Below are positions 2,517 through 34,167 of a stretch of DNA of 34,167 nucleotides, piece by piece (the first letter of the stretch is position 1; every line of letters starts with the position of its first letter). A program made the position numbers and the translations under genes. The notes below the pieces were generated by a model. That model had not been told where the DNA came from and ran no database searches. It saw nothing but the letters and a program-made list of their open reading frames with translations. The stretch is from a virus. The DNA is taken from the IMG/VR virus record IMGVR_UViG_3300037673_000020, positions 1 to 34,167 of that record. One strand, written 5' to 3'.

Positions 2517-2734
2517 GTTACTGTCTCCGGCTTGTATGGAGAGTAGGAGGCCCGCACGTGCACCTTCAGGGGCTCACGGGCCATCACCTCCAGTAGAGGC
2601 ATCCGCCGCCCCTCCTTATCATAGATAACGATGCTGAACAGCTCCTCGGTATCCAGGGGCGTGAGGTCAACGTGATACTCCCACTCGCCGTGGGCCTGGT
2701 CGTATGAGTGCCACTCTCCGAGTTTTACTGCCAT
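2513..2734 (-). CDS. Small hypothetical protein in the glycosyltransferase operon
   Basis: A 73-residue protein (MAVKLGEWHS...) with charged and hydrophobic stretches and no motif I recognise. An in-frame ATG eight codons earlier would overlap the upstream gene more, but GAGGAATT sits about eight bases before the chosen ATG and leaves a 10-base overlap with the GT2 gene. The end overlaps the double glycosyltransferase as ATGA, so the three are probably translationally coupled. The predicted short beta strands (EYHVDL, FSIVIYD, LKVHVRA) would suit a small beta-rich accessory domain. Function unknown. Confidence 0.62.
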   Translation of the reverse strand: MAVKLGEWHSYDQAHGEWEYHVDLTPLDTEELFSIVIYDKEGRRMPLLEVMAREPLKVHVRASYSPYKPETVT

Positions 2735-3435
2735 AACAATTCCTCTTCGACATAACATGATGGAAGCCTGCGGACGGCATACTTCCGTCCGGTCAGGTCG
2801 CCCGGCTTCTCGAAGCCGGAGCCATACATGGATAGATATTGCGATTCCTTCTCGGCCAGCCGCTTCTCATCGAGCCAGCCGAGATGGAGGATTCCCACAT
2901 TGAAATCGGCGATTTCATCGTCGAGAAACTCGATTAGCTGCCCGCCGGATAGCTTCATCACGTGCTCGTGCACCTGTCCCACCCATCGCAGCCTCTCATC
3001 AGCCCTCCACACCCTCGGCCAGGTCTCCCATCCCCCGTGAGAGGCGGCGTAGTGAGACTTGTCGCTGACAATATTGTATTGCTTGACCCTCACCGCCACA
3101 ATCTCAGGCGGGAGATTTCGCAAAGCCTGCCTGAACCACGATTTGTACCGTGCGGGAAAAATCTCGTCGCTGTCAATCCTCATCCACCACCACTCCTCGC
3201 CACGCGGGGCGTGGTCAAATGAAACCTGTCTTTGCAACGCAAAGTGGCCTGGCCACTTGTGCTCAACGAGTTTGATGTTTAGGATGCCCTTTTGCCTATG
3301 GATGATATTCAGCGTCTCGTCCTGAGAACCGCCGTCCACAATGGTCACGTGATTTGCCAGGCCATGAAGCGACTTCAGACACGCCAGCAGGGTATCTTCG
3401 TTGTTCAGGACTATCATCGTGACAGCTAATTTCAT
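2725..3435 (-). CDS. GT2-family glycosyltransferase
   Basis: A 236-residue GT-A glycosyltransferase. It opens with KLAVTMIVLNNEDTLLACLKSL, the first beta strand and helix of the family, then VTIVDGGSQDET, the nucleotide-binding region, and MRIDSDEIF near residue 87, which supplies the DxD-type metal ligands. The tail from about 200 holds ADFNVGILHLGW. The length suits a minimal GT2 domain with no membrane helix, so it should be cytoplasmic. The ATG overlaps the stop of the upstream GT2 gene (ATGA). It resembles enzymes that build surface or lipopolysaccharide-type glycans; the sugar is unknown. Confidence 0.88.
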   Translation of the reverse strand: MKLAVTMIVLNNEDTLLACLKSLHGLANHVTIVDGGSQDETLNIIHRQKGILNIKLVEHKWPGHFALQRQVSFDHAPRGEEWWWMRIDSDEIFPARYKSWFRQALRNLPPEIVAVRVKQYNIVSDKSHYAASHGGWETWPRVWRADERLRWVGQVHEHVMKLSGGQLIEFLDDEIADFNVGILHLGWLDEKRLAEKESQYLSMYGSGFEKPGDLTGRKYAVRRLPSCYVEEELLWQ

Positions 3436-4184
3436 TTGGCTAACTCCGGGTACTTCTTGATGAGCTTAAGCCAGTTGGGATGGGTCTGGCCCGGATGCTC
3501 CCTATCGAACCGCCTGAGCACCCTATCACGCCAGGAGCCCTGGCTCTCGCTATCGTCCACCATCATCGGGATGCCGTTCGCCAGAACGACCTCCCCTCCT
3601 GCCTCGACAAGGCGGATGCCGAAATCCCTGTCGGCGAAGCCCATGCTTAAATCAAACTCCTCGTCAAAGCCGCCCACCTTCTCCACAAGCGAGCGAGGAC
3701 ACGACATCCCGGCGCTTGTGACCCAGGAGGCCGGCCCCTCCCGACGAATCTCAAACGGGATGAGGTAGTAATGCTTGGCGACCCTATTGGCGAGATGAGG
3801 AACCAATACACAATTCGGAATAAAGGCATGGTATAGCTGAATAAGGAAGAGCGCGTGGGGGTGGAATATCAAATCATCGTCGAGGAAGAGGATAACGTCG
3901 TTATGGGTATGGCGGATGGCTATATTGCGGGAGCTATAGACCCTGGGAAGGTCATCGGGGTGACGCTCGCGATAGATGTACTCGGCCTTGAAGGGGAGGG
4001 AGCCCCAGTCTATGGAGAAACCCACCTGGGGCTGCGAGCCATCGTCCACCACGCAGCAGTCCAAATGCTCGAATCTAAAGAAGAGCTGCTCCGAGAGCTG
4101 GCGGACGACCCTGGCGAGGGATTGAGGGCGATTATAGGTGGCTATCACGACGCTAATGCTCGGAAGCTCTAACGTATACGGCAT
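3432..4184 (-). CDS. GT2-family glycosyltransferase
   Basis: A 250-residue GT-A enzyme starting MPYTLELPSISVVIATYNRPQSLARVV. CCVVDDGSQ is the nucleotide-binding turn and VILFLDDDLIF gives the DxD metal site. GGFDEEFDLSMGFADRDFGIRLVEAG matches the acceptor-side ED/DRD region of the family. The frame stays open far upstream, but that stretch is arginine-, glycine- and proline-rich, overlaps another gene on the same strand and looks like a shadow. The chosen ATG has GGAGG eight bases before it and overlaps the upstream stop as ATGA. Substrate unknown. Confidence 0.9.
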   Translation of the reverse strand: MPYTLELPSISVVIATYNRPQSLARVVRQLSEQLFFRFEHLDCCVVDDGSQPQVGFSIDWGSLPFKAEYIYRERHPDDLPRVYSSRNIAIRHTHNDVILFLDDDLIFHPHALFLIQLYHAFIPNCVLVPHLANRVAKHYYLIPFEIRREGPASWVTSAGMSCPRSLVEKVGGFDEEFDLSMGFADRDFGIRLVEAGGEVVLANGIPMMVDDSESQGSWRDRVLRRFDREHPGQTHPNWLKLIKKYPELAK

Positions 4185-5218
4185 CACTTCTCCTCCAGTA
4201 ACGCTAAATACTGACTGGCTAATCGCCTCCCGGCCATCTCCGAGGACAGAAGATTTACGGCCCGATGTCTGTTGAACACCCCCATCCTCTGCTGAAGGAC
4301 GGGGTCTGAGAGGATGAGCTGGAGGCGCTCGTGTAGAATATCCCACCGCCTGCATGGGATGATGAAGCCCCCCTCCGGCCTCACTATCTCGTGGAAGGCG
4401 CCGACGCCGGTGGTGATGACCGGCAGTCCCGAAGCCATAGCCTCGGTCACTGCCACCCCCCACTGCTCGACCCAGGCCCTCAGAGGGTCGTGGGAGAGGA
4501 GCGGGAGGCTCACCAGCACGAATACAGTGGCCTCCTGATAGATGCCCGGCAAATCCTCGTGGGGCACAGCCCCCAGGAAGCGGGCGCTCACCTCGTATTC
4601 CTCGGCCATCTGAGCGAAGACATCTATCCGCCCATCGCCGACGACCCAAAGCTCGGCATCCAGCCCGGCCATCGCCCAAATCAGGTCTTGGATGCCCTTC
4701 TCCAGGGTCACGCGGGCCACGGTGAGCACTACCCTGGTATCGGGCACAAAGGGCAGTGGCGCAAACATGTCGGTATCCACCCCTGGGGAGATGACCCGGA
4801 TTTTATCCTTCGGCACGCCCTCCAGCAGGAGGACGTTGGCGGCCATGCTGCTGCGGGCGATATAGAGGTCGAAGGCGCCCTGCCAGGCCAGCCCTCCCGT
4901 CTGCCTGTTCTTTCCGGGGAGGTTATCGAAGCAGGAGCACACCAGGCGCGTCCCCGGCTCGGCCCTGGACGCGCAGTACCGCGTCAGGGCATAGTGGAGG
5001 TCGGGCAGGTCTAGGATGGTCGGCTCAAGGGATAAGACCTCATCCGGGTGCTTCCAATAGACCATCTCGGCACCCTCCATCCTCTCGCCGCCCCTCAGCT
5101 CCACGGCGATGATGACCTCGGCCTCGACGCCCTCCCGCTCCAAGGCGTCGGGTAGCGATTGATAAGTCATAAGGTCATGCGGGCTAAACTTGTCAGGGCG
5201 AGCGATTACGATACGCAT
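4184..5218 (-). CDS. GT4-family glycosyltransferase
   Basis: A 344-residue GT-B protein. KIRVISPGVDTDMFAPL near residue 140 is the classic inter-domain GV(D/N)xxxF motif of GT4 enzymes. VVLTVARVTLEKGIQDLIWAM opens the donor-binding domain, and TEAMASGLPVITTGVGAFHEIV near 265 is the E(x7)E-type sugar-nucleotide site. No membrane helix or signal is visible. The start overlaps the stop of the upstream GT2 gene, whose last codon is next to this ATG. It would add a sugar from a nucleotide-activated donor in the cytoplasm; donor and acceptor cannot be told. Confidence 0.92.
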   Translation of the reverse strand: MRIVIARPDKFSPHDLMTYQSLPDALEREGVEAEVIIAVELRGGERMEGAEMVYWKHPDEVLSLEPTILDLPDLHYALTRYCASRAEPGTRLVCSCFDNLPGKNRQTGGLAWQGAFDLYIARSSMAANVLLLEGVPKDKIRVISPGVDTDMFAPLPFVPDTRVVLTVARVTLEKGIQDLIWAMAGLDAELWVVGDGRIDVFAQMAEEYEVSARFLGAVPHEDLPGIYQEATVFVLVSLPLLSHDPLRAWVEQWGVAVTEAMASGLPVITTGVGAFHEIVRPEGGFIIPCRRWDILHERLQLILSDPVLQQRMGVFNRHRAVNLLSSEMAGRRLASQYLALLEEK

Positions 5219-5919
5219 CAGGCTCCTTTCGTCCCGTTATGGCCCTCTTTGTCGGGCCGTAAGGTGAAATGATAGACGACGGCGGTGGAGTATCCCACCT
5301 TGAAGCCGGCCCGCTGGGCAGCTCGGCAATACTCACGGTCGCTGCCGATATGGGGATAATTCTCCTCGTCCAGAAGGCCCACCTTCTCTAGCACGTCCTT
5401 GTGTATCCCCATCACGGCCCCGGTGACCCACTCATACCAGTTACGGCAGCGCCTCGGCTCGAAGTAGCTGATATTGGGCTGCCTCATCCCGTAGTGGAAG
5501 CCCTCCCCATAAGCTCCGGCGTGGTCAATCCTCCCATCGGCGGTGAGGGTCTTGCAGCCGACGATTCCCCACCTCAAGACCTCGGCCTGCCCCACCATAA
5601 TCTCGGCCCATCCAGGCGTGACCTCGGTATCGGAATTGAGGAGGATAAACCAATCATATCCCCCATCCTGCCGGGCCAATCTCAGGCCCTCGTTGCACGC
5701 CTGGGTGAACCAGAGACGCCTCTCCACGAGCCTTCCGGTGAGGCGATTGAAATTATCCCCTAACCAGCGGATGAGGCCCTCGGTCTCTGTATCCGTCTCC
5801 CCTGAGACGATGTAGGCGTGCCAGGGGAGACAGGTGTGGAGATAGAGGGATTCCACACAGGCGGCCAGGTGCATGGCATCCTTATAACTGGGAATGATGA
5901 TAGCGACATTTCTCACCAT
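5218..5919 (-). CDS. GT2-family glycosyltransferase
   Basis: A 233-residue GT-A enzyme. MVRNVAIIIPSYKDAMHLAACVESL begins the fold, DWFILLNSDTEVTPGW carries the DxD-type site (NSDTE), and VTGAVMGIHKDVLEKVGLLDEENYPHIGSDREYCRAA matches the acceptor region of rhamnosyl-type GT2 enzymes. Upstream in-frame residues are low-complexity and lie inside the preceding GT4 gene, so the start is set at this ATG, which overlaps that gene by seven bases; a GTG directly after it is an alternative. It may build rhamnose-like glycans, but that rests on family resemblance only. Confidence 0.9.
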   Translation of the reverse strand: MVRNVAIIIPSYKDAMHLAACVESLYLHTCLPWHAYIVSGETDTETEGLIRWLGDNFNRLTGRLVERRLWFTQACNEGLRLARQDGGYDWFILLNSDTEVTPGWAEIMVGQAEVLRWGIVGCKTLTADGRIDHAGAYGEGFHYGMRQPNISYFEPRRCRNWYEWVTGAVMGIHKDVLEKVGLLDEENYPHIGSDREYCRAAQRAGFKVGYSTAVVYHFTLRPDKEGHNGTKGA

Positions 5920-6884
5920 ACGAGACCCGCCTTCACCTTCTCGGCCAGCTTGATGTACTCCCCCGCCATGCGCCAGTGATTGAACCACGAGACGGAGCGG
6001 CGACACTCATAGGGATTTATCTCGTCAATGTGGCTCAGCGCATAGGCATAATCATCGAGGCTATAGCAGATGTAGCCATTGCGCCCGCTCTGGATGTACT
6101 CCGGGAGGCACCCATTATCGCTCGCGAGCACCGGCGTCCCGCAATGGAGTGCCTCCAGGACGATTATGGCCCCCGCCTCGACCCATCCGGTACCGCCCAC
6201 CGGGTGGATTAAAGCCTTCGCCCTCATGATAAGCTCCAGCTTCTGCTGGCCGCCCACATCCCCCATGTAGATTATCTTGTCGCTGTCGAGATGGGGCTTG
6301 ATGGCGTTTCTGAAATACTCCGGCACCCAGGCAGGCCCGCAGATGATGAGCTTATGCCTGCACCTCTTCGCCACATCAATGGCGATATGGGCCTGCTTCT
6401 CCGGGATGACGCTCCCCATGTAGAGGAGATAGTCCTCCCTCTCGCCGAGGTAGAGAGGATACTCCCCGGCGCGGATGCCATAGTAAATCACCTTCGCCTC
6501 CTCCATCTTGAGGTGGCGGCGCTGAGCATAGGAGATGCAGACGACGTTATGGGGCCAGGAGAGGCTCATGACCTGATAGACGTTTATCGAGGGGAAGTTG
6601 GGCCAGAGCCTCGGAATCACCTTGTCGTGGCTCATGTCAATCAGGGCATCGAGCCTCTTGTGCCACTCGCCCGCCGCAAAAGCGTGGGCGAACTGACGCT
6701 CCGATAGCGTGACGGCCTCCAGCTTCCCGCCAGGCGGGGCCTTGGAGCCCTCCTTGGCGAAGAGTGTAACATTATGTTGCATTTGGGAGAGGGCGCAGCA
6801 AAGCCACCAGGCTATCCGCTCAATCCCCCCATAACGCTCAGGCGGCGTGGGTATCGCCGCCGTGGAAATCACTCCTATTTTCAT
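5913..6884 (-). CDS. GT4-family glycosyltransferase
   Basis: A 323-residue GT-B enzyme. MKIGVISTAAIPTPPERYGGIERIAWWL has the glycine-rich acceptor-side loop (YGGIE) of GT4 enzymes. DYLLYMGSVIPEKQAHIAIDVAKRC begins the donor domain, and GAIIVLEALHCGTPVLASDNGCLPEYI holds the sugar-nucleotide site. It resembles the family that includes UDP-glucose:tetrahydrobiopterin-type and many exopolysaccharide transferases. The chosen ATG overlaps the stop of the small gene before it (ATGA) and has GGGAGGGCGGAGG upstream; earlier in-frame residues are arginine- and glycine-rich and look spurious. Confidence 0.9.
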   Translation of the reverse strand: MKIGVISTAAIPTPPERYGGIERIAWWLCCALSQMQHNVTLFAKEGSKAPPGGKLEAVTLSERQFAHAFAAGEWHKRLDALIDMSHDKVIPRLWPNFPSINVYQVMSLSWPHNVVCISYAQRRHLKMEEAKVIYYGIRAGEYPLYLGEREDYLLYMGSVIPEKQAHIAIDVAKRCRHKLIICGPAWVPEYFRNAIKPHLDSDKIIYMGDVGGQQKLELIMRAKALIHPVGGTGWVEAGAIIVLEALHCGTPVLASDNGCLPEYIQSGRNGYICYSLDDYAYALSHIDEINPYECRRSVSWFNHWRMAGEYIKLAEKVKAGLVW

Positions 6885-14401: not shown

Positions 14402-14425
14402 AGGCGCTCCCAAGATGATATTCCA

Positions 14426-14456
14426 AGTGGGGCGGCGCCCGGCTCGCCGCCCCACT
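14426..14456. repeat. GC-rich 11-bp inverted repeat in the methyltransferase leader
   Basis: AGTGGGGCGGC at 14426-14436 pairs perfectly with GCCGCCCCACT at 14446-14456 around a nine-base loop. On the leftward transcript it lies about 25 bases before the methyltransferase ATG and lacks a following T-run. It could block ribosomes, stabilise the message or take part in attenuation. A second, weaker hairpin (GCAGCC/GGCTGC) lies close to the predicted transcript start. Confidence 0.6.
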
Positions 14457-14574
14457 ACCAGAAAGGAGGAGAAAGATGAACGGCGCGGCCCCCTGGAGGC
14501 TGCTCGCAACCTGCCTGCAACCAATATCCCTATCGCAAGGTGAAAATCGCAGCCCCTCCCTGGCGGCTGCTGTT

Positions 14575-26712: not shown

Positions 26713-27104
26713 GGCGATAAGGCAGGCAACAAGGGCAGAGAGAGGGGATACACATGGATTGTCCTTTGGGGACACTCAGGTGGTTTTGGAGGCTTTACAG
26801 TGATAGGGTGGAGTAAAGCATGGCGGGGGGCGATTCGACCGGGAAAAAACGGCTCCCCGGTCTTCCAAAACAGCATGGTTAGCCAGGCAAATGGCCTTTC
26901 CAGACCACCCAATCAGCTTTTTCTAGACATAAGAGTAATAGTCTGAAGTTTGGTGGGAGACCAGGGAGAAAGACATACAAACGCTAACAGCAAAAAGCGC
27001 TTAGTCCCGAATTTACAGTTTATTCCCCCCCCTCTCCCGTCCAGTCCCAGATCGCTCATATGCTGCTATTGCTCATACGATTACGATAGCACAGACCTGC
27101 AAAC
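26713..27104. other. Noncoding interval at the end of the rightward operon
   Basis: About 390 bases without a convincing gene. It holds the hairpin GTCC/GGAC (26761-26773), the three-way-junction candidate (26783-26871), a weak TAGAC/GTCTG stem (26924-26944) and GCTTTTT/AAAAAGC arms (26916-26922 and 26992-26998). The last 100 bases are pyrimidine-rich and show nothing clear. The interval ends at a bidirectional terminator, so it would be the 3' part of the rightward transcript. Confidence 0.5.
26783..26871 (+). ncRNA. Candidate structured RNA (three-way junction)
   Basis: Three perfect stems nest as a junction. The outer stem is GTTTTGGA (26783-26790) with TCCAAAAC (26864-26871). Arm A is GCTTTAC (26792-26798) with GTAAAGC (26813-26819). 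Arm B is GACCGGG (26837-26843) with CCCGGTC (26856-26862). A 17-base linker joins the arms. GGGTGG in the arm A loop could also pair with CCACCC near 26905-26910 as a pseudoknot. It is neither a tRNA nor a recognisable known RNA. It may instead be decayed sequence with chance stems. Confidence 0.45.
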
Positions 27105-27151: not shown

Positions 27152-28573
27152 CTATCGTTTTTTCTGCATCATATCTATTTGAGCAATAATGCTCAGCGCT
27201 TGTTTTGCAATCCGGGACATAATCTCCATCCGCCGGGACTCATATTCCTGCCCATGCCCCGGATTGGTAACGTGAGACAGTTCATGGACAACCGTCTCAA
27301 GCACCAGGAAAGCATGTTTGTTCAGCACCCGGTTCGGTTTTACTGCTATGATAATATCGGAGATACTTCCGATGTTCAAACAGATAGCATTGGCATCTTC
27401 TGTGTCCAGTAATAGTCCGGCCGTTATGTTGTAGTGCTTTATCTCCGGGTCTAGCATTTTTACCATCTGCAAAGCATAGCTAATTATCCCTAATGGTTTG
27501 CGATACTTCTTTTTTAATCTCCTTTCATGGAATAGCCTAGATTTTATTGACCGGTTGTGGACTATCGCGTAATCTCCGATATTATCGTTTGTCCGCATAT
27601 AGTGCAATATCTTAACAGTATCATCTTCTCCTATGGCTGTTTCAGTCCAATCGCGATTAAAATTGTGTGAACAGACCGTTATGTGTGTTATCTTTGCTTT
27701 TTTGTCCAACCTACCTTTCTTTATCTGTTCTAATTCATACTTATCTATCACGTCACAAACTTCTCTTTTGACGTGATACAGAAGATAATCGCGATTCTCT
27801 GAAAGTATTTTATTGCTTACCTGCTCAAGCTCAAGGTAATAGCAGTATTCGGATTGAACATGGTCTATTGCTGTGAATAGACCTTTTACGCGTATGTACA
27901 ATTCGCCGGGCCATTCGTTTTGTCTGAATTTCTTTCCCCGGTAGACATACAGCCTACCGTCACCTGCAATGCTATTTGATAGCAGTTTGAGATTCGATAG
28001 TGTTCTACCTTGTTTGACTGTCTCCCCATTCAATTTTATCTGCATTGGGATATTACTCAAGGACATTATGTGAGCAAGGTGTTTGCCTACCTGTATACTG
28101 TTGAACAGCCGTGCACTCTCCTGCTTTTCGGATTCGTCATATATAACGGTAAAACCGTTTTTTCTCCCCGGCTGTTCAATACTTACAATATCTGCTGCAC
28201 CTTGCCCGGTGCAGACAAAATCCAAACTCCGAATCTCCCAATGCGCCATTGCGAATGTGAGTTCTTTTGCTGCACCAAAGCAGCCGAGGGAGCCGGGTGG
28301 TTTTTTGGAGCCGCCCAAGGCAAGATAATACTTTCTAAACTCTTCCAAACTCATACCACAGCCGTTGTCGCTGGCAATCAACTTGTGTGTGTCTGGCGTT
28401 GAAAAGTGCAATGTTGTTGCGCCAGCATCCATAGAGTTTTGTATCAATTCCCGGATTAAGGCTCTACAGACATTGTTGTACTGTTGCCTTACACGTTTTG
28501 CGAAGTGGAAAGTTGGCAATACGATACTTTCCTTGTGCACTGTGTTGTGCTCATTCGTCTTTGTGCTGTTCAT
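27152..28573 (-). CDS. GHKL ATPase with C-terminal metallopeptidase-like motif
   Basis: A 473-residue protein. The N-terminal GHKL (Bergerat) ATPase shows the N-box RELIQNSMDAGA at 41-52, G1 DNGCGM at 69-74 and the glycine lid GSLGCFGAAKE at 94-104, as in HSP90/MutL/MORC-type ATPases. A middle region of about 200 residues is unassigned. Near 430-440, VHELSHVTNPGHGQEYE gives HExxH plus a third His ten residues after the first, a zinc-metallopeptidase signature like that of WLM/SprT or metzincin enzymes. AAAGGAG precedes the ATG; an earlier ATG is rejected. AT-rich compared with neighbours. Activity and target are unknown. Confidence 0.82.
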   Translation of the reverse strand: MNSTKTNEHNTVHKESIVLPTFHFAKRVRQQYNNVCRALIRELIQNSMDAGATTLHFSTPDTHKLIASDNGCGMSLEEFRKYYLALGGSKKPPGSLGCFGAAKELTFAMAHWEIRSLDFVCTGQGAADIVSIEQPGRKNGFTVIYDESEKQESARLFNSIQVGKHLAHIMSLSNIPMQIKLNGETVKQGRTLSNLKLLSNSIAGDGRLYVYRGKKFRQNEWPGELYIRVKGLFTAIDHVQSEYCYYLELEQVSNKILSENRDYLLYHVKREVCDVIDKYELEQIKKGRLDKKAKITHITVCSHNFNRDWTETAIGEDDTVKILHYMRTNDNIGDYAIVHNRSIKSRLFHERRLKKKYRKPLGIISYALQMVKMLDPEIKHYNITAGLLLDTEDANAICLNIGSISDIIIAVKPNRVLNKHAFLVLETVVHELSHVTNPGHGQEYESRRMEIMSRIAKQALSIIAQIDMMQKKR

Positions 28574-28627: not shown

Positions 28628-29167
28628 TCATGTTGCACTTTTTACCATGCTGTTTATGCGCTTTTGCAGTTCGGAGATTTGTTTATTCAAGCCAATCAAT
28701 TGCTGTTCCAATTGCGTCTTTTGAATTATCAAATCGCTGTGCTTCTCCATAAGTGCTTTCAAATCATTACTTTCGCTGCTATTATTCAGCATAGCTTGAG
28801 CAAACTCTTTGAGTTCCACAAGAGTATGTTCCTGTGCAAACTCAAACAAATCATAGAGTTGACTCATACTTAGCGTATGCTGTTTATGTAGTTGCATGAT
28901 GTATGCTGTTTTTGCTATGCCAATACTGTCAATCCAATCCCAGGATATGTCTAGCAAGACAGCAAAGTTGTAGATGTTCGCTAATCTGTAGAGCTGCTGA
29001 CGTGACATTCCACATTGTTGAGCAAAACGCTCTACAGTGCAATATGCCCTCTCGCTCGCTATCCCTATCAGCGACCGGGCGGCTGTGGCCCGTTCGCTGA
29101 TAGGTCTGTTTTTATCAGAAGCTATAGCGATAATCTCTATAGTTGATAATGTCTTATCGCTGTTCAT
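28628..29167 (-). CDS. Helix-turn-helix / coiled-coil protein
   Basis: A 179-residue protein. ERATAARSLIGIASERAYCTVERFAQQCGMSRQQLYRLANIYNF contains a likely helix-turn-helix (FAQQCGMSRQQLYRLANI, about 62-79). The C-terminus, ALMEKHSDLIIQKTQLEQQLIGLNKQISELQKRI, is a strong coiled coil for dimerisation. It is the first gene of a two-gene leftward operon behind a consensus promoter, 54 bases before the GHKL ATPase. It could be a regulator or a partition-like protein acting on the adjacent repeats. AAAGGAGAG precedes the ATG. No known family assigned. Confidence 0.68.
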   Translation of the reverse strand: MNSDKTLSTIEIIAIASDKNRPISERATAARSLIGIASERAYCTVERFAQQCGMSRQQLYRLANIYNFAVLLDISWDWIDSIGIAKTAYIMQLHKQHTLSMSQLYDLFEFAQEHTLVELKEFAQAMLNNSSESNDLKALMEKHSDLIIQKTQLEQQLIGLNKQISELQKRINSMVKSAT

Positions 29168-29211
29168 TCTACTCTCCTTTTCTGGCTTTTGTCTCATAAT
29201 GTTACATATAT

Positions 29212-29241
29212 ATTATACCAAATTTGACCTACAAATGTCAA
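29212..29241 (-). promoter_or_regulatory. Consensus leftward promoter for the HTH-GHKL operon
   Basis: On the minus strand TTGACA (29241-29236), an 18-base spacer and TATAAT (29217-29212). The predicted start is near 29205. ATGTTACA (29199-29206) overlaps that start and matches one arm of the palindrome at 29502-29518. Two ATTTGTCA copies lie just upstream. This arrangement fits control by a repressor, perhaps the HTH protein itself. Confidence 0.82.
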
Positions 29242-29501: not shown

Positions 29502-29518
29502 TGTAACATGATGTTACA
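29502..29518. promoter_or_regulatory. Perfect palindrome, candidate operator
   Basis: TGTAACAT (29502-29509), one central G, then ATGTTACA (29511-29518). Single half-sites recur at 29199-29206 (at the leftward transcript start), 31545-31552 and 32687-32694, the latter two just before GC-rich palindromes. It is probably a dimeric regulator site. Confidence 0.65.
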
Positions 29519-29587: not shown

Positions 29588-29719
29588 CGGACTAGACGAC
29601 AAACTAGAGTGCAAACTAGAGTGCAAACTAGAGACCAAACTAGAGCACAACTTGCGCTCTAGACTAGCGCTCAAATGAATGTCAAATCGCAGCGAAACTA
29701 GAGCGAAAACTAGAGACCG
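29588..29719. repeat. 12-bp ACTAG tandem repeat array
   Basis: Units of 12 bases run in phase from 29588: CGGACTAGACGA, CAAACTAGAGTG twice, CAAACTAGAGAC, CAAACTAGAGCA, then degenerate units. ACTAG cores lie at 29591, 29603, 29615, 29627, 29639 and 29663, and after a two-base phase slip at 29697 and 29709. A further ACTAGA occurs at 29785. The same core appears in pairs before genes on the right side of the window. It looks like an iteron or operator array. Confidence 0.78.
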
Positions 29720-29860
29720 AAAACGCGCAAGAGTGCGCAAAAAACCGCGCAATATCACGCACCCCCGAAGCCTAAACGCGCAAAACTAGACAGCGAAAAC
29801 TCGCCAAACGCGCAAAAGTGCGCAGCAATGACAAATTTTGTGCAAAACACAAATTGGGTC

Positions 29861-29889
29861 TTGACATTTGTCAATTTTTTTGATATAAT
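29861..29889 (+). promoter_or_regulatory. Consensus sigma70 promoter for the right cassette
   Basis: TTGACA (29861-29866), 17 bases, TATAAT (29884-29889) match exactly. The -35 box is the left arm of the palindrome TTGACATTTGTCAA (29861-29874), so a bound repressor would cover it. It faces right, about 25 bases before the first GTG-started gene. Confidence 0.9.
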
Positions 29890-30273: not shown

Positions 30274-30483
30274 ATGGCAACGATAAAATCTATCGAAAAG
30301 AGCACAACGTGGGACTTAAACTTGAAGTGTCCCCGGCATATCGGAAACAACGTCGTCTCCGTCGTCGTATTTGACGACGGGGATGAAGATGTTTACTGCT
30401 GGTGTGGAGTGCTCCTGGCGTTTCGGCGCAATGGAGTGCTCTACACCCACCCCACCACAGACCCCCGAAAAACAGTCACATAA
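30274..30483 (+). CDS. Small zinc-ribbon-like protein
   Basis: A 69-residue protein, MATIKSIEKSTTWDLNLKCPRHIGNNVVSVVVFDDGDEDVYCWCGVLLAF..., with three cysteines (LKCPRH, YCWCG). Together with the His this could form a metal site. AAGGAGGTG lies just before the ATG, 10 bases after the previous stop. Function unknown. Confidence 0.62.
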   Translation: MATIKSIEKSTTWDLNLKCPRHIGNNVVSVVVFDDGDEDVYCWCGVLLAFRRNGVLYTHPTTDPRKTVT

Positions 30484-30504
30484 TGCGACAAAGGAGGTGG
30501 CGGC

Positions 30505-30669
30505 ATGATATATAGTCTGACCTGCCCCGCCGGCCTGGATGATGCACAGGCGGCCCTGTGGCCGGCTGTGCTGGACTACCTCTTAGACGGGCAGGACTGG
30601 GAAGAATTATCAGAAGAAGAACAAAACAGAATAATAACCGAGGCCCTGAACATGATTCAGGCAGCCTAA
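30505..30669 (+). CDS. 54-residue acidic helical protein
   Basis: AAAGGAGGTGGCGGC precedes an ATG reading MIYSLTCPAGLDDAQAALWP ... IITEALNMIQAA. The protein is acidic and helical (DWEELSEEEQNRII). It lies between the zinc-ribbon gene and the first GC-rich palindrome. No family recognised; the strong Shine-Dalgarno site and ATGs spaced evenly along the operon support it. Confidence 0.6.
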   Translation: MIYSLTCPAGLDDAQAALWPAVLDYLLDGQDWEELSEEEQNRIITEALNMIQAA

Positions 30670-30670
30670 C

Positions 30671-30788
30671 GGCGGCTTGCCCGCCGCCGTCTGGGGGGAA
30701 GGCGCTTACCCCCAGGCGATGGCGGGCAAGCGCTTTTTCCGCCGTCAACCGCCACGCCCGCCTGATGGCGGCTGACTAGACAAACTAG
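30671..30788. repeat. Cassette palindrome copy A with ACTAG pair
   Basis: GCTTGCCCGCC (30675-30685) pairs with GGCGGGCAAGC (30721-30731), enclosing an inner stem CTGGGGG (30691-30697) with CCCCCAG (30709-30715). Here a T-run follows (GCTTTTT), so this copy could terminate transcription. After a GC-rich tail come two ACTAG cores (30775 and 30784) directly before the next Shine-Dalgarno site. The unit shares arms and order with copies B, C and D. Confidence 0.82.
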
Positions 30789-30798
30789 GAGGTGGAAG

Positions 30799-31527
30799 AT
30801 GGAGAAAAATTTGACGAAAGAGATAATCGCTGAGATGCTGGTGGAGCCGGTACCTCATAGCTTTTTGGACTCCGGCTATGCTTACGGCTACAATCACGAA
30901 AGAAACCTGTTTCGTGAATTTGAGAAAGAGCCAGAGGTCAAGCTAGAGGTCTGGGAAGATGAGTTCATTGCGCGGGTGCCGCTATATCACTTTCTGACCG
31001 CTAACCTGGAGTATGACCGGTTAGCGGACGAGTTGACCGCCGATTTGTGGCGGTTCGCCGAGGAGGATAACTGGAGCCGAGAGCCGTGGCATATCGTGAT
31101 TGAAGAATGGGCCGCCGCGCGGGGCCACGGCCTACTCCGAGGGGGAAACACCTACAACTTTGATTGTGTACTAGACCAGGATTTTACGTGGTACGAGTTA
31201 TTTCCGGATGAGCCGGATGCCCTGGACGCGTTTGAGGCAGAGTACCTAATTATCCGGGTCCACGGCGGATGCGATATTCGCGGTGGGTATACAGCGCCGC
31301 GGATATTCCGGGTCTATGATTTGTATGAGTTCTTTGCGGGAATGGTAGACCTGGGGGCCATTTGCCAATGCAGCCAGTTTTTTAGTGATGATGCGGGATG
31401 GCACTGGTACCCCAACGCCACGACGGAGGACAAAAAGCCGTCCTGGAGGCTTGACCCGGACAATCAGAAAGTTTTTTGCCGCAAGTGCAACGGGGAGGTG
31501 ACGTTTGGAGCATATTTGAGCTATTAG
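30799..31527 (+). CDS. Acidic hypothetical protein with C-terminal zinc ribbon
   Basis: A 242-residue protein, the largest in the right cassette. It is acidic and aromatic-rich (NLEYDRLADELTADLWRFAEEDNWSREPWHIVIEEW). Near the end ICQCSQFFSDDAG and KVFCRKCNGEVTF give two CxC/CxxC pairs, a probable zinc ribbon. GGAGGTGG precedes the ATG, immediately after ACTAG motifs. It stands alone between palindrome copies A and B. I recognise no family; acidic, zinc-ribbon proteins of this type are common among phage early proteins. Confidence 0.7.
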   Translation: MEKNLTKEIIAEMLVEPVPHSFLDSGYAYGYNHERNLFREFEKEPEVKLEVWEDEFIARVPLYHFLTANLEYDRLADELTADLWRFAEEDNWSREPWHIVIEEWAAARGHGLLRGGNTYNFDCVLDQDFTWYELFPDEPDALDAFEAEYLIIRVHGGCDIRGGYTAPRIFRVYDLYEFFAGMVDLGAICQCSQFFSDDAGWHWYPNATTEDKKPSWRLDPDNQKVFCRKCNGEVTFGAYLSY

Positions 31528-31544
31528 TCACATTTAGTCGCATA

Positions 31545-31705
31545 ATGTTACACGCTGGCAACCCAGATGCAGGCGCGGCTTGCCCCGCGCCGCCAGGGGG
31601 GAGCGCGGCGCTCCCCTGGCGGGGCCGGGCAAGCGGCATAGCGCCGAGGGGTAGTATCCGCGTCGGGCCGCCGCCCGGCCCCGGCGGCCCGACTAGATAA
31701 CTAGA
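31545..31705. repeat. Cassette palindrome copy B with flanking motifs
   Basis: Order: ATGTTACA half-site (31545-31552), outer arm GCTTGCCC (31578-31585), inner arms GCCAGGGG (31592-31599) and CCCCTGGC (31613-31620), outer arm GGGCAAGC (31627-31634), a GC-rich tail ending CCCCGGCGGCCC, then two ACTAGA cores (31692 and 31700). A Shine-Dalgarno site and the next gene follow. No T-run follows the stem, so termination is less likely than in copy A. Confidence 0.82.
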
Positions 31706-31725
31706 CCATGAAAGGAGGTGAGGGT

Positions 31726-32016
31726 ATGGACAAGCTGGATAACAAACTAGAGCTGAGTTTTAAGGATGACGCCGAGTATTTGGCGGCAATCCTTAAGGAT
31801 GCGGGGGTGCCCGTTGAGGTCGAAGGCAGCAAGGTGGTCTTCCCATCGGCCCAGGCGTTGGAAGACTACCTAGAGTTTTGTACAACTATGGGCATAGACG
31901 CCTATAGTTATGAGTTCCTCTATGACAATGTGGAAGGCTGCTATACTTGCCCGCTGGAAAATAATTGTCCGGTAGACCTCTACGGGCCAGGTTTCTGCCC
32001 GTTTGAGGTTGGATAA
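31726..32016 (+). CDS. Acidic cysteine-containing hypothetical protein
   Basis: A 96-residue protein, MDKLDNKLELSFKDDAEYLAAILKDAGVPVEVEG..., with a short alpha-beta N-terminus and a C-terminal CYTCPLENNCPVDLYGPGFC. The four cysteines could bind a metal. An ATG six codons earlier lies before the Shine-Dalgarno site and is rejected; AAAGGAGGTGAGGGT fits this start. First gene of a three-gene group after palindrome B. Confidence 0.62.
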   Translation: MDKLDNKLELSFKDDAEYLAAILKDAGVPVEVEGSKVVFPSAQALEDYLEFCTTMGIDAYSYEFLYDNVEGCYTCPLENNCPVDLYGPGFCPFEVG

Positions 32017-32037
32017 AAACCAAAAGGAGGTGGAAAG

Positions 32038-32493
32038 ATGAATAATAGAATTGAGATTCCCGACTCACTGGGTATCAGCCTGGAGGCTGATGGCGCCGAC
32101 CTGGACATTTTATTTGACTTTGGCCCCTGGGTTGGGGTTAGAATAATCTCAAATCCAGACGCCACTGTAGTTCATGACTACGGCTGGCGCGACGGGCCGG
32201 AGGAGATTATTGTATACCCCTCCCTGGAGGAGGCAATCGCCGAAGAGATAGACGTTTTCGCGGAGAGCTGGCCGTTGGAAGACTGGCCGGAGACGCCGCG
32301 AGAATACGTTGACCTCCTGCTGGATTACATCAAGGAGCTAACGCAACGCGGCTGTGTGGACGGCCTCGGCCAGGAACGCGGCGGCGCCTTGTCTGAGGAA
32401 GCAGCGAATGAGCTGCTCAAGGCGCTGGACTACGACGCGCTCATAGAATGCGTTAGCTCCTGGCCCTACTATCAGGGAAAGGAGGCAAAGTGA
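32038..32493 (+). CDS. Acidic hypothetical protein
   Basis: A 151-residue protein. The first half is beta-rich (LDILFDFGPWVGVRIISNPDATVV), the second helical and acidic (EEAIAEEIDVFAESWPLEDWPETPREYVDLLLDYIKEL). AAAGGAGGTGG precedes the ATG. It overlaps the next gene as GTGA. No recognised family or metal site. Confidence 0.62.
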   Translation: MNNRIEIPDSLGISLEADGADLDILFDFGPWVGVRIISNPDATVVHDYGWRDGPEEIIVYPSLEEAIAEEIDVFAESWPLEDWPETPREYVDLLLDYIKELTQRGCVDGLGQERGGALSEEAANELLKALDYDALIECVSSWPYYQGKEAK

Positions 32494-32696
32494 ACAAACT
32501 ATACTTAAGGCTCGCCACCCTCACCTACCGCGCCGGCAGCCGTCTCCTGGAGATTGGCTATCGCCACTTAGACCGACGGTGGAGCGGCCCGGCGCGGCGG
32601 GCGGGAGTGTGGCTCCTCCATAAGCAGCATGTGCCACTGGCGCTAGTGAAAGCGCCGGTGGCGTGGATAGAGGGAAGGTGGGAGGCTGTAACATAA
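32490..32696 (+). CDS. Small basic protein (GTG start)
   Basis: A 68-residue basic protein, MNKLYLRLATLTYRAGSRLLEIGYRHLDRRW..., amphipathic and arginine-rich, with a mildly hydrophobic C-terminal half. The GTG overlaps the previous stop, and AAAGGAGG lies upstream, so translation is probably coupled. Its end overlaps the TGTAACAT half-site of the next palindrome unit. A membrane- or nucleic-acid-associated role would fit but is unproven. Confidence 0.55.
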   Translation: MNKLYLRLATLTYRAGSRLLEIGYRHLDRRWSGPARRAGVWLLHKQHVPLALVKAPVAWIEGRWEAVT

Positions 32697-32847
32697 TGAG
32701 ACAGCCAGGCGGCGGCTTGCCCGCCGCCAGGGGGGAAGGCGCTTCCCTCCTGGCGGGGCCGGGCAAGCTATTAGCCGCCGTTGGCCCGCCACCCGGCCTT
32801 GCCCTGTGAGCATGGGGCAAGCGGGCCAACTAGATAACTAGATAACC
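32687..32847. repeat. Cassette palindrome copy C with flanking motifs
   Basis: TGTAACAT (32687-32694), then GCTTGCCC (32715-32722) with GGGCAAGC (32761-32768) enclosing GCCAGG...CCTGGC (32726-32754). A second hairpin follows: TTGGCCCGC (32781-32789) with GCGGGCCAA (32821-32829), enclosing CTTGCCC...GGGCAAG. ACTAGAT occurs twice (32829 and 32837), then AAAGGAGGTGAGG and the next gene. It has the same order as copies A and B. Confidence 0.84.
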
Positions 32848-32865
32848 AGAAAGGAGGTGAGGCGA

Positions 32866-33294
32866 ATGGGATGGACATTTTGCCCCCCACAGCCTGGAGT
32901 GCAGCACAAAAAGGAAACGGTGTGCTGTGACTTTTGCGGGCGTTGCCCGCGCTGCTCACCCACGCCGATGGAGGCAGTCTCGGACGGATACGGGCCGGTT
33001 TATTATGTCTGCAAAGACCACCACTTTCGGCCCAAAGTCAAAGACCCGTCCCGCGCTTTTGTCGTGGACGTGGGGACATATAGCACAGTTGAAGCGCTCC
33101 ACCGAGCCATCGACCGGAAGCTGGCCCCCAGGCCGGTGGAGGGGGGAGTGTATAGGATTGTCGCTCCCCACGCCCCGGATTGGGACGGGATGCGGGCAAA
33201 GGTCGTGAAAGTCAAGCGCACCCGCGCCATCTGTGAAACCGTGCGCGGGCTGGCGGATGTACCGTTTACGATGCTGGCCGCTTTGACCAACTAG
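32866..33294 (+). CDS. Cysteine-rich zinc-binding hypothetical protein
   Basis: A 142-residue protein. The N-terminus has CPPQPGVQHKKETVCCDFCGRCPRCSPTP, several CxxC pairs that could hold one or two zinc ions, then VYYVCKDHHF. The C-terminal half is basic and beta-rich (GVYRIVAPHAPDWDGMRAKVVKVKRTRAICETV), resembling a small SH3-like barrel. AAAGGAGGTGAGGCG precedes the ATG. First gene after palindrome C. Nucleic-acid binding is plausible. Confidence 0.65.
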   Translation: MGWTFCPPQPGVQHKKETVCCDFCGRCPRCSPTPMEAVSDGYGPVYYVCKDHHFRPKVKDPSRAFVVDVGTYSTVEALHRAIDRKLAPRPVEGGVYRIVAPHAPDWDGMRAKVVKVKRTRAICETVRGLADVPFTMLAALTN

Positions 33295-33342
33295 ATTAGT
33301 CAATTGACCAAAATTGTTGATATGAGAAAGGAGGTGAAAGAG

Positions 33343-33927
33343 ATGCCCGGCAATATCACCAGCGCGGAGTGGGAGGCCCTCCCGGAGCAGGCCAGGCGAA
33401 TGATTGCCGACGGCTTTGTAAAGCCGGAGACAATCATAGAAGCCTGGCGGCGAAAGTGGGAGCGAGAGGGGCCGCCACCCGGCTTCATGCTTAACCTGGA
33501 CGGGCGTCTGGAGAAAGCGCCCGCCTACCGGCCCAACCCGGCGACAATTGGCCTACTAGAGCTGAGCCGGCGGGATGCCCCAGGCGTCAGCCGGCCCCTG
33601 CCTCCCGCTCCCACGCCCAAAGCCTCCCCCAGGCCCTCCCGGCGTGGCCCTGGCGCTGATGGCGACATTTGGCATATCTGCAAGCGCGGCGAGTCTCACC
33701 CCTACGCCGGGGCCAGGGTCAGGGTGAGGTGGCTGAGAAGTTGGGGCAAAAAGGGCCCAGGCTTTGAGGCTGAGGGGGAGTTGGTCATGACGTTCGCAAA
33801 GGCCCGGCCCGGCGGGCGGGCTACGCTAATCGGACAAATCCGATTATCCGATGGGAAGTTGCTCGCTTGCCCCTGGAGCCGGCGGTATCTGAAGGTAGAG
33901 ATTCTGAAAGGAGGTGAAAGAAGATGA
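33343..33927 (+). CDS. Basic hypothetical protein with proline-rich linker
   Basis: A 194-residue protein. An N-terminal helical domain (ITSAEWEALPEQARRMIADGFVKPETIIEAWRRKW), a proline-rich linker near 75-115 (LPPAPTPKASPRPSRR) and a basic C-terminal beta domain (GARVRVRWLRSWGKKGPGFEAEGELVMTF ... LKVEILK). AAGGAGGTGAAAGAG precedes the ATG; an earlier in-frame ATG lies upstream of that site. It overlaps the next gene as ATGA. Two domains and a linker suggest a binding adaptor. Confidence 0.62.
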   Translation: MPGNITSAEWEALPEQARRMIADGFVKPETIIEAWRRKWEREGPPPGFMLNLDGRLEKAPAYRPNPATIGLLELSRRDAPGVSRPLPPAPTPKASPRPSRRGPGADGDIWHICKRGESHPYAGARVRVRWLRSWGKKGPGFEAEGELVMTFAKARPGGRATLIGQIRLSDGKLLACPWSRRYLKVEILKGGERR

Positions 33928-34103
33928 CCAGAAAGGATTACATACTTCTGGCGGGGGCAATCCGCCGGGCGCGGCTGTGCCCGGATTGCATGAAGAGAAT
34001 CGTGGACGAGATAGGCTGTGTTCTGGCGGAGGATAATTGGCGGTTTGATTGGCACCGCTGGCTAGTCGCCTGTTATCCGCCGGAAGACGACGAAGAAGAG
34101 TAA
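33924..34103 (+). CDS. Small phage protein of the MTRKDY type
   Basis: A 59-residue protein, MTRKDYILLAGAIRRA ... CPDCMKRIVDEIGCVLAEDNWRFDWHRWLVACYPP. The layout RKDY...A..L..DN.RFD..R(F/W)L.AC matches a widespread small phage protein of unknown function. Here CPDC is inserted near the middle. AAAGGAGGTGAAAG precedes the ATG, which overlaps the previous stop. This match supports a phage origin for the right cassette. Confidence 0.72.
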   Translation: MTRKDYILLAGAIRRARLCPDCMKRIVDEIGCVLAEDNWRFDWHRWLVACYPPEDDEEE

Positions 34104-34167
34104 TATAATGAGACAGTTGTTGGCTCAAGACCAGGCGCGGGCGGCTTGCCCCGCGCCGCCAGGGGAG
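34104..34167. repeat. Cassette palindrome copy D (cut by the window end)
   Basis: After the last gene, ATAATGAGACAG (also present at copy C, 32694-32705) is followed by GGCGCGGGCGGCTTGCCCCG with the outer arm GCTTGCCC at 34144-34151 and then GCCGCCAGGGGAG, the inner left arm. The right arms lie beyond the window. It shows the array continues to the right. Confidence 0.7.

Follow-up and report, generated by a model that had tools for sequence, protein, structure and literature searches.

What does a structured repeat do when it stands before one short group of small genes after another in the early region of a phage? The window analysed here is an IMG/VR phage record of 34,167 nucleotides, and together with two overlapping records of the same phage it covers ~75.7 kb. 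An earlier note on the window had counted at least four copies of the repeat (units A-D) and proposed that they may drive recombination, regulate each gene group or insulate transcripts. We found five: the overlapping records complete unit D and supply unit E (L008:8856-8986; L008 coordinates are used for D, E and the downstream part of the phage). The parts follow the same order in all five units, namely a long hairpin (hp1), a second hairpin (hp2), one or two ACTAG motifs, GGAGGTG and a start codon, with E differing in its first hairpin; the GGAGGTG is the strong Shine-Dalgarno site previously claimed to follow ACTAG. Full copies are confined to the early region, in a single orientation, between gene groups. 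The units are not products of chance, since folding gave z-scores of -4.0 to -7.5 with none of 200 shuffles equally stable for each of the five, and the hp1 of A-D surpass every other hairpin of the phage in stability (-50.6 to -56.9 kcal/mol, against -41.9 for the one ranked next; 64-nt windows over 75.7 kb, C in its L008 form).

The shared outer arms of hp1, GCTTGCCC/GGGCAAGC, occur exactly as first described on the plus strand of units A (30675-30731), B (31578-31634) and C (32715-32768), each a 24-bp hairpin; that of C has a 3-nt bulge, which is missing from its 3-nt longer L008 version. The hp1 of D begins on the same strand at 34144-34167, where the window ends, and is complete at L008:7703-7758 (whole unit to the start codon, L008:7703-7830). 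An inner CCAGGGG/CCCCTGG-type stem, ascribed to all copies, was present in B and D, with CCAGGGG/CCTCCTGG in C and TCTGGGGG/CCCCCAGG in A. Counted from the folds, the stem has 24 paired positions in A-D and 21 in E, so that A-D exceed the stem length of ~22 bp or more associated with RNase III (22 nt; PMC5371410) and E falls just below it.

Long hairpins in such places could also be terminators or attenuators at every unit, acting as gates that a phage antiterminator (a protein or the RNA itself) would let the polymerase pass in lytic growth. The hairpins do lie behind the last gene of a group, GCTTTTTCC directly follows the hairpin of A, and a pattern scan classed E as a T-tailed terminator, L008:2500-13080 having 17 sites of this kind where 10.7 were expected. 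A and E thus have the GC-rich stem and U-tract of an intrinsic terminator and may simply be terminators. Units B, C and D, however, lack a U-tract, the bases after their hp1 being GGCATAGC, TATTAGCC and TATGGCGT, respectively. Intrinsic terminator stems are also usually shorter than 24 bp, and a scan of early genes, few of which match any family, recognised no antiterminator. We regard gating by termination at every unit as unlikely, though a serious candidate.

The GC-rich tail of the original description proved to be hp2. Its 3' arm and the first ACTAGA share the bases AC, so that the first ACTAG begins at the last two bases of the hairpin. This second hairpin was found in all five units, at 32-51 nt in length, and on the plus strand it occupies 30744-30776 in A (one A-C mismatch), 31662-31693 in B (a perfect 12-bp stem) and 32780-32830 in C, where a CTTGCCC/GGGGCAAG hairpin is nested within the loop; the hp2 of D is identical to that of B. 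Of the 40 pairs that the first ten positions give in A, B, C and E, 39 are standard, and the check for compensatory changes that had been suggested returned two-sided changes at five of those ten (pairs 3, 4, 6, 8 and 9). Two results temper this. The stems, being GC-rich, also pair well with foreign arms, and the true assignment only tied for best in an arm-exchange test (2/24); in the minimum-energy fold of a longer stretch of unit A an overlapping stem replaces hp2, which we count against the explanation we favour below.

Two ACTAG motifs stand 8 or 9 bp apart in A-C, as reported: at 30775/30784 (9) in A, 31692/31700 (8) in B and 32829/32837 (8) in C. On the plus strand the pair of A spans 30775-30788, its second motif continuing into the Shine-Dalgarno site, B reads ACTAGATAACTAGA (31692-31705) and C reads ACTAGATAACTAGATAACCAGA in 8-bp tandem repeats (32829-32850). 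Unit D has a single ACTAG and a degenerate repeat, and in E hp2 and two ACTAG lie behind the different, T-tailed hairpin. A further nine ACTAG form an array at 29591-29790 on the plus strand, upstream of the early rightward promoter P_R, the first five at 12-bp spacing. Because ACTAGATA stops all three frames in A, B and C but two in D and E, we rejected a universal translation stop as the definition of the motif and keep it as a possible side role. Tandem ACTAG presumably resembles the trp operator; a TrpR-type operator was also set aside, the Trp_repressor family PF01371 having no match in the three phage records.

The Shine-Dalgarno site was predicted to be more exposed in the six hairpin leaders (mean unpaired probability 0.62) than in ten other early genes, one with an uncertain start (0.37), with weak exposure in A (0.37) and E (0.44). 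The start codons point the other way: their mean unpaired probability is 0.40 in the six leaders versus 0.55 in the ten other genes, and the values of 0.01 in A and 0.06 in B predict pairing there.

Each unit precedes one to three small genes, as the earlier note had it (A 1, B 3, C 3, D 2, E 1). On the plus strand, group A (30799-31527) encodes a 242-aa protein of phrog_11344, a family of unknown function, with 39% identity to an Erythrobacter phage homologue and 28% to that of Mycobacterium phage Stephig9. Group B (31726-32696) holds genes at 31726-32016, 32038-32493 and 32490-32696, all without a Pfam match at E 0.1, the second having one non-significant PHROG match (E 0.23). Group C (32866-34103) holds genes at 32866-33294, 33343-33927 and 33924-34103; the first two had no family match, and the third matched weakly to phrog_2922 (E 0.009) and Zn_ribbon_NrdR (E 0.067, below cut-off).

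Such an arrangement could reflect an exchangeable cassette array in which the units are shared borders, at which a site-specific recombinase acts or the copies recombine with one another by homology. The hp2 of B and D are identical while the intervening genes are unlike each other, and repeated border copies along the array would permit homologous exchange. Yet when the proposed search for a linked recombinase was extended beyond the window, neither a tyrosine- nor a serine-recombinase domain (Phage_integrase, PF00589; Resolvase, PF00239) was found in the three phage records. Integron attC sites carry RYYYAAC/GTTRRRY cores at the hairpin ends, and the attC reading fared no better: both cores are absent from B and C, one RYYYAAC occurring at 30664, before A. 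The units are moreover placed directly before Shine-Dalgarno sites, and we consider a cassette array quite improbable.

The sequences TGTAACAT/ATGTTACA that had been noticed before B and C are present, each being one perfect half of a 17-bp dyad. Eight dyads were found in total: one at the leftward promoter P_L, one between P_L and P_R, five at gene ends and one within a leftward gene that lies at a distance from the early region. They are AGTCGCATAATGTTACA (31536-31552), eight bases past the stop codon of group A; TGTAACATAATGAGACA (32687-32703) and AGTAATATAATGAGACA (34099-34115), overlapping the stop codons of groups B and C; AGTCACATAATGCGACA (30474-30490), overlapping the stop codon of the gene at 30274-30483 and without a hairpin; the perfect dyad TGTAACATGATGTTACA (29502-29518) between the promoters; and a copy at 29190-29206, at about +1 of P_L, in addition to the remaining gene-end site and the one in the leftward gene. 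All eight score at least 20.3 bits, against 12.1 for the next best site in 75.7 kb and a maximum of 15.5 in ten Markov sequences; the matrix was built from seven of the eight, whose leave-one-out scores were 18.4-24.2. Two of seven gene-group boundaries, A and E, have no adjoining dyad, a point against the explanation favoured below.

P_L (29212-29241, minus strand; TTGACA-18-TATAAT) lies before the leftward gene of P0001, a 179-aa protein (28628-29167, minus strand) and candidate dyad binder. P0001 gave weak helix-turn-helix matches below cut-off, and its model is all-helical with a long C-terminal helix, for which Foldseek found no match in the PDB at E up to 0.001. P_R (29861-29889, plus strand; TTGACA-17-TATAAT) has the units downstream. 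Within L008:2500-13080 only three sigma-70-like promoters match at 12/12 positions, namely P_L, P_R and a site at L008:9343, after unit E. These perfect promoters lie outside the units, and A-E are therefore probably internal to one early transcript of ~5.9 kb.

Promoter positions also bear on whether each unit is an ESAS-like element with a promoter of its own, hp2 serving as operator dyad and ACTAGA as part of the -10. There are precedents: the ESAS of cluster K has both a putative SigA-like promoter and an inverted repeat ahead of its start-associated motif (PMC11373665), and genes of Erythrobacter phage vB_EliS-L02 are preceded by a hairpin, a GTTAACCTTAAC dyad, promoter-like TTGACGAATCAC and a Shine-Dalgarno site. 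Units A-E, by contrast, contain no promoter-like site at 9/12 matches, and what lies upstream of ACTAGA is the 3' arm of hp2, variable in sequence with pairing kept. Since the arm varies and hp2 differs in length between units, there is no fixed -35 spacing, and a promoter in every unit appears improbable.

We also searched for relatives of the unit beyond this phage and found none. Blastn of unit B returned no match among 50,697 records of phages and 72,556 of plasmids, and 90 loci with a phrog_11344-like protein gave no hit at E up to 1 to a covariance model built from the five units. Unit-directed pattern scans of viral contigs gave 1, 11 and 0 stretches besides this phage; by eye these single matches lacked the two hairpins and were read as chance (the 11 judged on 90 upstream bases). 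One of them, L033, does precede a Shine-Dalgarno-like site and ATG. The dyad scan of viral contigs gave 19 stretches, 18 of them in other records; a second site of at least 17 bits occurred in 2 of the 18 (L133 and L141), and a series like that of this phage in none. The most CTAG-poor of these records, L128, had no protein in common with this phage (E 1e-4, 13.9 kb compared). Searches with one protein at a time, namely TerL, the 242-aa protein and one protein of the right part of L008, matched this phage only, and 20 other proteins of the region had no match in loci L040-L127, a comparison that left out two D genes and the gene at L008:8616.

Rfam gave no match above gathering score in the window and one, HEARO, in four further pieces, while the three matches that L008:2500-9500 gave at E up to 1 all stayed below threshold. 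We treated as chance a fluoride-riboswitch-like match in part coincident with unit A (20.7 bits against a cut-off of 34, E 0.031) and a below-threshold MIR8670 match overlapping unit D.

The hairpins might instead be copies of a REP or MITE-like repeat of the host chromosome that entered the phage. Their inverted-repeat form, the occurrence of one hairpin in four copies and a nested GCTTGCCC-like hairpin in unit C would suit such an origin. Against it, the early region alone has full copies, all oriented alike and in fixed order with hp2, ACTAG and the Shine-Dalgarno site, and unit B has no match in the phage or plasmid collections; a host repeat is highly improbable.

We give roughly even chances to the explanation we favour, that the units are cis-acting RNA punctuation of one long early transcript, joining T7-like processing to stoperator-like repressor sites. 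Transcription from P_R would cross the genes and units A-E, and at each unit the RNA would present hp1 as ~24 bp of double strand (21 in E), hp2 behind it and the Shine-Dalgarno site just downstream. Most likely, RNase III of the host would cut hp1 as in T7 early RNA, or hp1 may act as a barrier otherwise; cleavage would need the host enzyme, as the RNase III domain PF14622 was found in none of the phage records. The outcome would be mRNAs of one to three genes, each new 5' end capped by hp2, with the U-tract-bearing hairpins of A and E probably terminating part of the transcripts. The ACTAG repeats would form a start-associated motif, placing stops in two or three frames directly ahead of the Shine-Dalgarno site and perhaps binding a phage factor. 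The dyad ending five groups would serve a dimeric repressor as its DNA site; P0001 is perhaps this repressor, and its own promoter carries a copy. Bound at the group ends, the repressor would block elongation in the manner of stoperators. A lysogen, which this explanation would presumably entail, sits less well with the three phage records, where no integrase domain was found. The original suggestion of regulated or insulated gene groups thus gains support from the hairpins and start-associated motif before the groups and the dyad after five of them, while its comparison with stoperators suits the dyad and fails for the hairpin unit.

The nearest described relatives are the start-associated sequences of cluster K, the stoperators of cluster A and the RNase III sites of T7, and the unit fully fits the definition of none of these families. 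Like cluster K SAS/ESAS, the repeats closely precede the start codons of some of the non-structural genes and nearly always have the same orientation; half of the cluster K repeats also carry an inverted repeat with a variable spacer ahead of the start-associated motif, which recalls hp2. SAS is a 13-bp GGGATAGGAGCCC that contains the Shine-Dalgarno core and lies a few bp at most from the start codon (PMC3203893), whereas our units have ACTAG repeats and GGAGGTG without GGGATAGGAGCCC. An imperfect inverted repeat upstream of the start motif, as in ESAS, is present in all five units, with hp2 variable in sequence against an ESAS consensus, and the units have two hairpins and no promoter-like site where ESAS has a putative SigA-like promoter. 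Erythrobacter phage vB_EliS-L02, which also encodes a phrog_11344-like protein, similarly places repeated leaders of hairpin, dyad and Shine-Dalgarno site before many small genes, but these hold promoter-like TTGACGAATCAC and their own dyad, and unit B has no DNA match in the collection that includes vB_EliS-L02.

Like T7 RNase III sites, the hairpins lie between early genes of what is probably a single early transcript, on a scale of ~6-7 kb, that would be divided into mRNAs of one to three genes; unlike in T7, each long hairpin has another conserved hairpin and a start-associated motif behind it, and cleavage is predicted. The eight dyads, like cluster A stoperators (L5, TipsytheTRex), are repeated at a promoter and in short intergenic spaces at gene-group ends, with one copy in a distant leftward gene and a putative repressor. 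Stoperators, however, are 13-bp asymmetric sites bound by a monomer at more than 20 per genome, compared with eight copies of a 17-bp inverted repeat, and the likeness is limited to the dyad. The SPBRE of SPbeta, bound by MrpR, is likewise a short phage DNA motif in several intergenic regions for a master repressor; the available part of its description gives 15 bp in promoter regions and includes no hairpin or start-associated part.

Tentatively, and with rather little expectation that every part will hold, we propose a new class of composite RNA leader module: a processing stem, a clamp hairpin with shape better conserved than sequence, tandem ACTAGATA and a Shine-Dalgarno site. Paired with it would be a DNA roadblock dyad at group ends, an arrangement through which one repressor and one RNA mechanism would jointly switch and insulate early groups, ACTAG being the site of a phage factor that would also bind the array by the early promoter. 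SAS and ESAS were described in 2011 and their role was still called unclear in papers of 2024 and 2025. The phage analysed here is an unrelated case with a clearer structure, in which a stem kept by two-sided changes and the lack of a promoter-like site inside the unit set an RNA role apart from that of a promoter. Should the RNA be processed as proposed, T7-style segmentation of early mRNA and repressor-type control would act on the same gene groups.

The composite units flagged in the earlier note as recurring on the right side of the window proved to be real and more numerous than it holds. Units A, B and C lie whole within the window, and L008, an overlapping stretch of the same phage that extends it to the right, completes unit D and contains a fifth copy, unit E (L008:8856-8986). 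All five follow one order, in which a long first hairpin (hp1) is succeeded by a second hairpin (hp2), ACTAG motifs, GGAGGTG and a start codon. In A-D, hp1 shares the arms GCTTGCCC...GGGCAAGC and forms 24 pairs in the folds, while hp1 of E has an unrelated stem of 21 pairs with a T-tract. The first ACTAGA overlaps hp2, whose 3' arm has that motif's AC as its last two bases; the ACTAG motifs are spaced 8-9 bp apart, with two each in A, B, C and E and one plus a degenerate copy in D. The gene at L008:8616-8858 is preceded by an extra hairpin without hp2 or ACTAG.

The window is itself an IMG/VR record, 34,167 bases long. Two further IMG/VR records, IMGVR_UViG_3300037598_000353 (43.6 kb) and IMGVR_UViG_3300037598_000406 (32.2 kb), belong to the same phage (99.9-100% identity to the window); their mutual overlap of 127 bases falls within the window, and the phage records together cover 75,736 bases. 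Across the shared stretch compared, 7,329 bases long, the left piece of _000406 is identical to the window at every position. Over the 7.7 kb in common, the window differs from L008 at one base near 27050 and lacks 3 bases in hp1 of unit C (32715-32768). Terminase, portal, capsid, head protease and tape measure genes were recognised, so this is a tailed phage, and perfect TTGACA-TATAAT promoters point to a bacterial host. The phage also encodes a 185-aa protein with a SpoIID domain, a sporulation-type gene (L020:10831-11388, minus strand; Pfam E 1.1e-16), and an IscB-like RRXRR protein (L021:7522-8604, minus strand; Pfam RRXRR E 1.2e-35; NCBIfam guided_IscB E 1.6e-31, under that model's cut-off) adjoining a HEARO (omega) RNA that exceeds the gathering score (L021:8559-8773, minus strand).

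Folding placed the units far beyond chance: A-E fold 4.0-7.5 SD below dinucleotide shuffles, and for each unit none of 200 shuffles was as low. When both strands of the 75.7 kb were scanned for hairpin energy (64-nt windows, step 4), hp1 of A-D gave the four lowest values (-50.6 to -56.9 kcal/mol), the next hairpin outside these four reaching -41.9. A weak match to the unit covariance model occurs at 14404-14479 of the plus strand, antisense to leftward genes (25.2 bits, E 0.00025). The ACTAG motif is likewise concentrated: 27 of the 28 plus-strand copies in the 70,065 bases examined lie in the 10 kb from 29591 on, compared with 3 of 10 on the minus strand (one palindrome, ACTAGT, in that stretch being counted on both strands), and part of the 27 are intragenic. 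Nine plus-strand motifs, the first five 12 bp apart, occupy 29591-29790, the gap between the divergent promoters; this array is perhaps an origin or an operator array with the unit's motif in common.

Compensatory change, for which the earlier note proposed a test, was found in hp2. In hp2 of A, B, C and E (that of D is identical to B), standard pairs occupy 39 of the 40 positions formed by the first ten pairs from the ends, with two-sided changes among copies at pairs 3, 4, 6, 8 and 9 (three from A, one from C, one from both) and a mismatch at pair 5 in A. The copies are few: when the 3' arms were reassigned among them, the true arrangement only tied for first with a B-E swap (2 of 24). Arms from other copies pair well too, owing to the GC-rich stems. 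In a longer fold of unit A, an overlapping stem beats hp2.

A pattern scan of L008:2500-13080 returned 18 promoter-like sites against 5.0 expected, none of them inside any unit upstream of its start codon; three are 12/12 promoters, namely the leftward promoter P_L, the early rightward promoter P_R and one at L008:9343, downstream of unit E. Given this absence, units A-E most likely lie within a single transcript of ~5.9 kb from P_R. The parts of the units best fit a punctuated early mRNA, in which hp1 would be a double-stranded processing stem or barrier and hp2 would cap the new 5' end, with a strong Shine-Dalgarno site downstream; the regulation or insulation of gene groups suggested earlier is likely. 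An RNase III domain (PF14622) was not found in the phage records. The main rival is that every hp1 terminates transcription, with antitermination; a U-tract follows hp1 in A and E only. For the punctuated mRNA, free ribosome access behind the hairpin leaders is only partly supported, since the mean unpaired probability of the Shine-Dalgarno site is higher behind six such leaders (0.62; A and E low) than in a set of ten further early genes (0.37), but that of the start codon is not (0.40 vs 0.55; A 0.01, B 0.06).

Alternatively, the units could be recombination borders, as the earlier note also proposed, yet this is unlikely: no Phage_integrase or Resolvase domain was found in the three phage records (control genomes: detected in 14/14 and 10/14, respectively), and neither B nor C has an attC core, one RYYYAAC lying at 30664, ahead of A.

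A separate 17-bp inverted repeat, the dyad (consensus WGTNRCATAATGNNACA), has eight sites of at least 20.3 bits, compared with at most 12.1 elsewhere and 15.5 in ten Markov sequences. The matrix was made from seven of the eight, each of which scores 18.4-24.2 when omitted in turn. One dyad lies at about +1 of P_L (29190), which precedes the leftward gene for P0001, and one between P_L and P_R (29502). Those at 30474, 32687, 34099 and L008:8544 overlap the stop codon at gene-group ends, and that at 31536, also at a gene-group end, starts 8 bases past it; no dyad adjoins units A or E. The eighth, outside the matrix (6765-6781; 21.3 bits), is near-perfect (TGTAACATTATGTTGCA) and lies far from the early region, inside one of several glycosyltransferase-like genes of the leftward region 225-6884 (minus strand). 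P0001 (179 aa) is a candidate dyad binder. Its helix-turn-helix matches are weak, under curated cut-offs, and its single-sequence model consists of helices alone, the C-terminal one being long (pLDDT 77.5, pTM 0.48). A tblastn search of the phage collection gave no match at E 1, and solved structures gave none either, whether compared by sequence (E 10) or by fold (E up to 0.001). The P0001 gene adjoins that of a 473-aa protein (27152-28573, minus strand) whose N-terminus is of the GHKL/Hsp90 ATPase type; an HExxH motif was spotted by eye close to its C-terminus.

Of 50,697 phage records, 31 encode a homologue of the 242-aa protein behind unit A (phrog_11344): 16 are of Mycobacterium phages, 14 of Gordonia phages and 1 of an Erythrobacter phage. 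The protein is also matched in 97 IMG/VR stretches, its own phage among them (80 loci retained), and at 9 further loci in genome contigs of bacteria and archaea. In the collections searched, the sequence of units A-E was seen in their own phage only. At several of the phrog_11344 loci, other leaders or palindromes recur that are unrelated to A-E, so repeated leaders are not rare in such regions. Erythrobacter phage vB_EliS-L02 (record 137180-145785) carries the leader TTGACGAATCAC 14 times, many copies being preceded by a hairpin and a GTTAACCTTAAC-type dyad and followed by AGGAGACA; three viral contigs (L055, L079, L101) and a Halorubrum MAG contig (L126) have short repeated palindromes near small genes, for example TCTCTTCGAAGAGA and CCCCGAGAGGGG.

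Among the papers listed for comparable elements, none was recognised from title and abstract as describing one of the same build. Part of that build is shared by each of SAS/ESAS (PMC3203893, PMC11373665, PMC12699233), stoperators (PMC9283540) and SPBRE (PMC10516654). Together, the hairpin units and dyads read as a new version of arrangements already known in phages for punctuation and for repressor sites.
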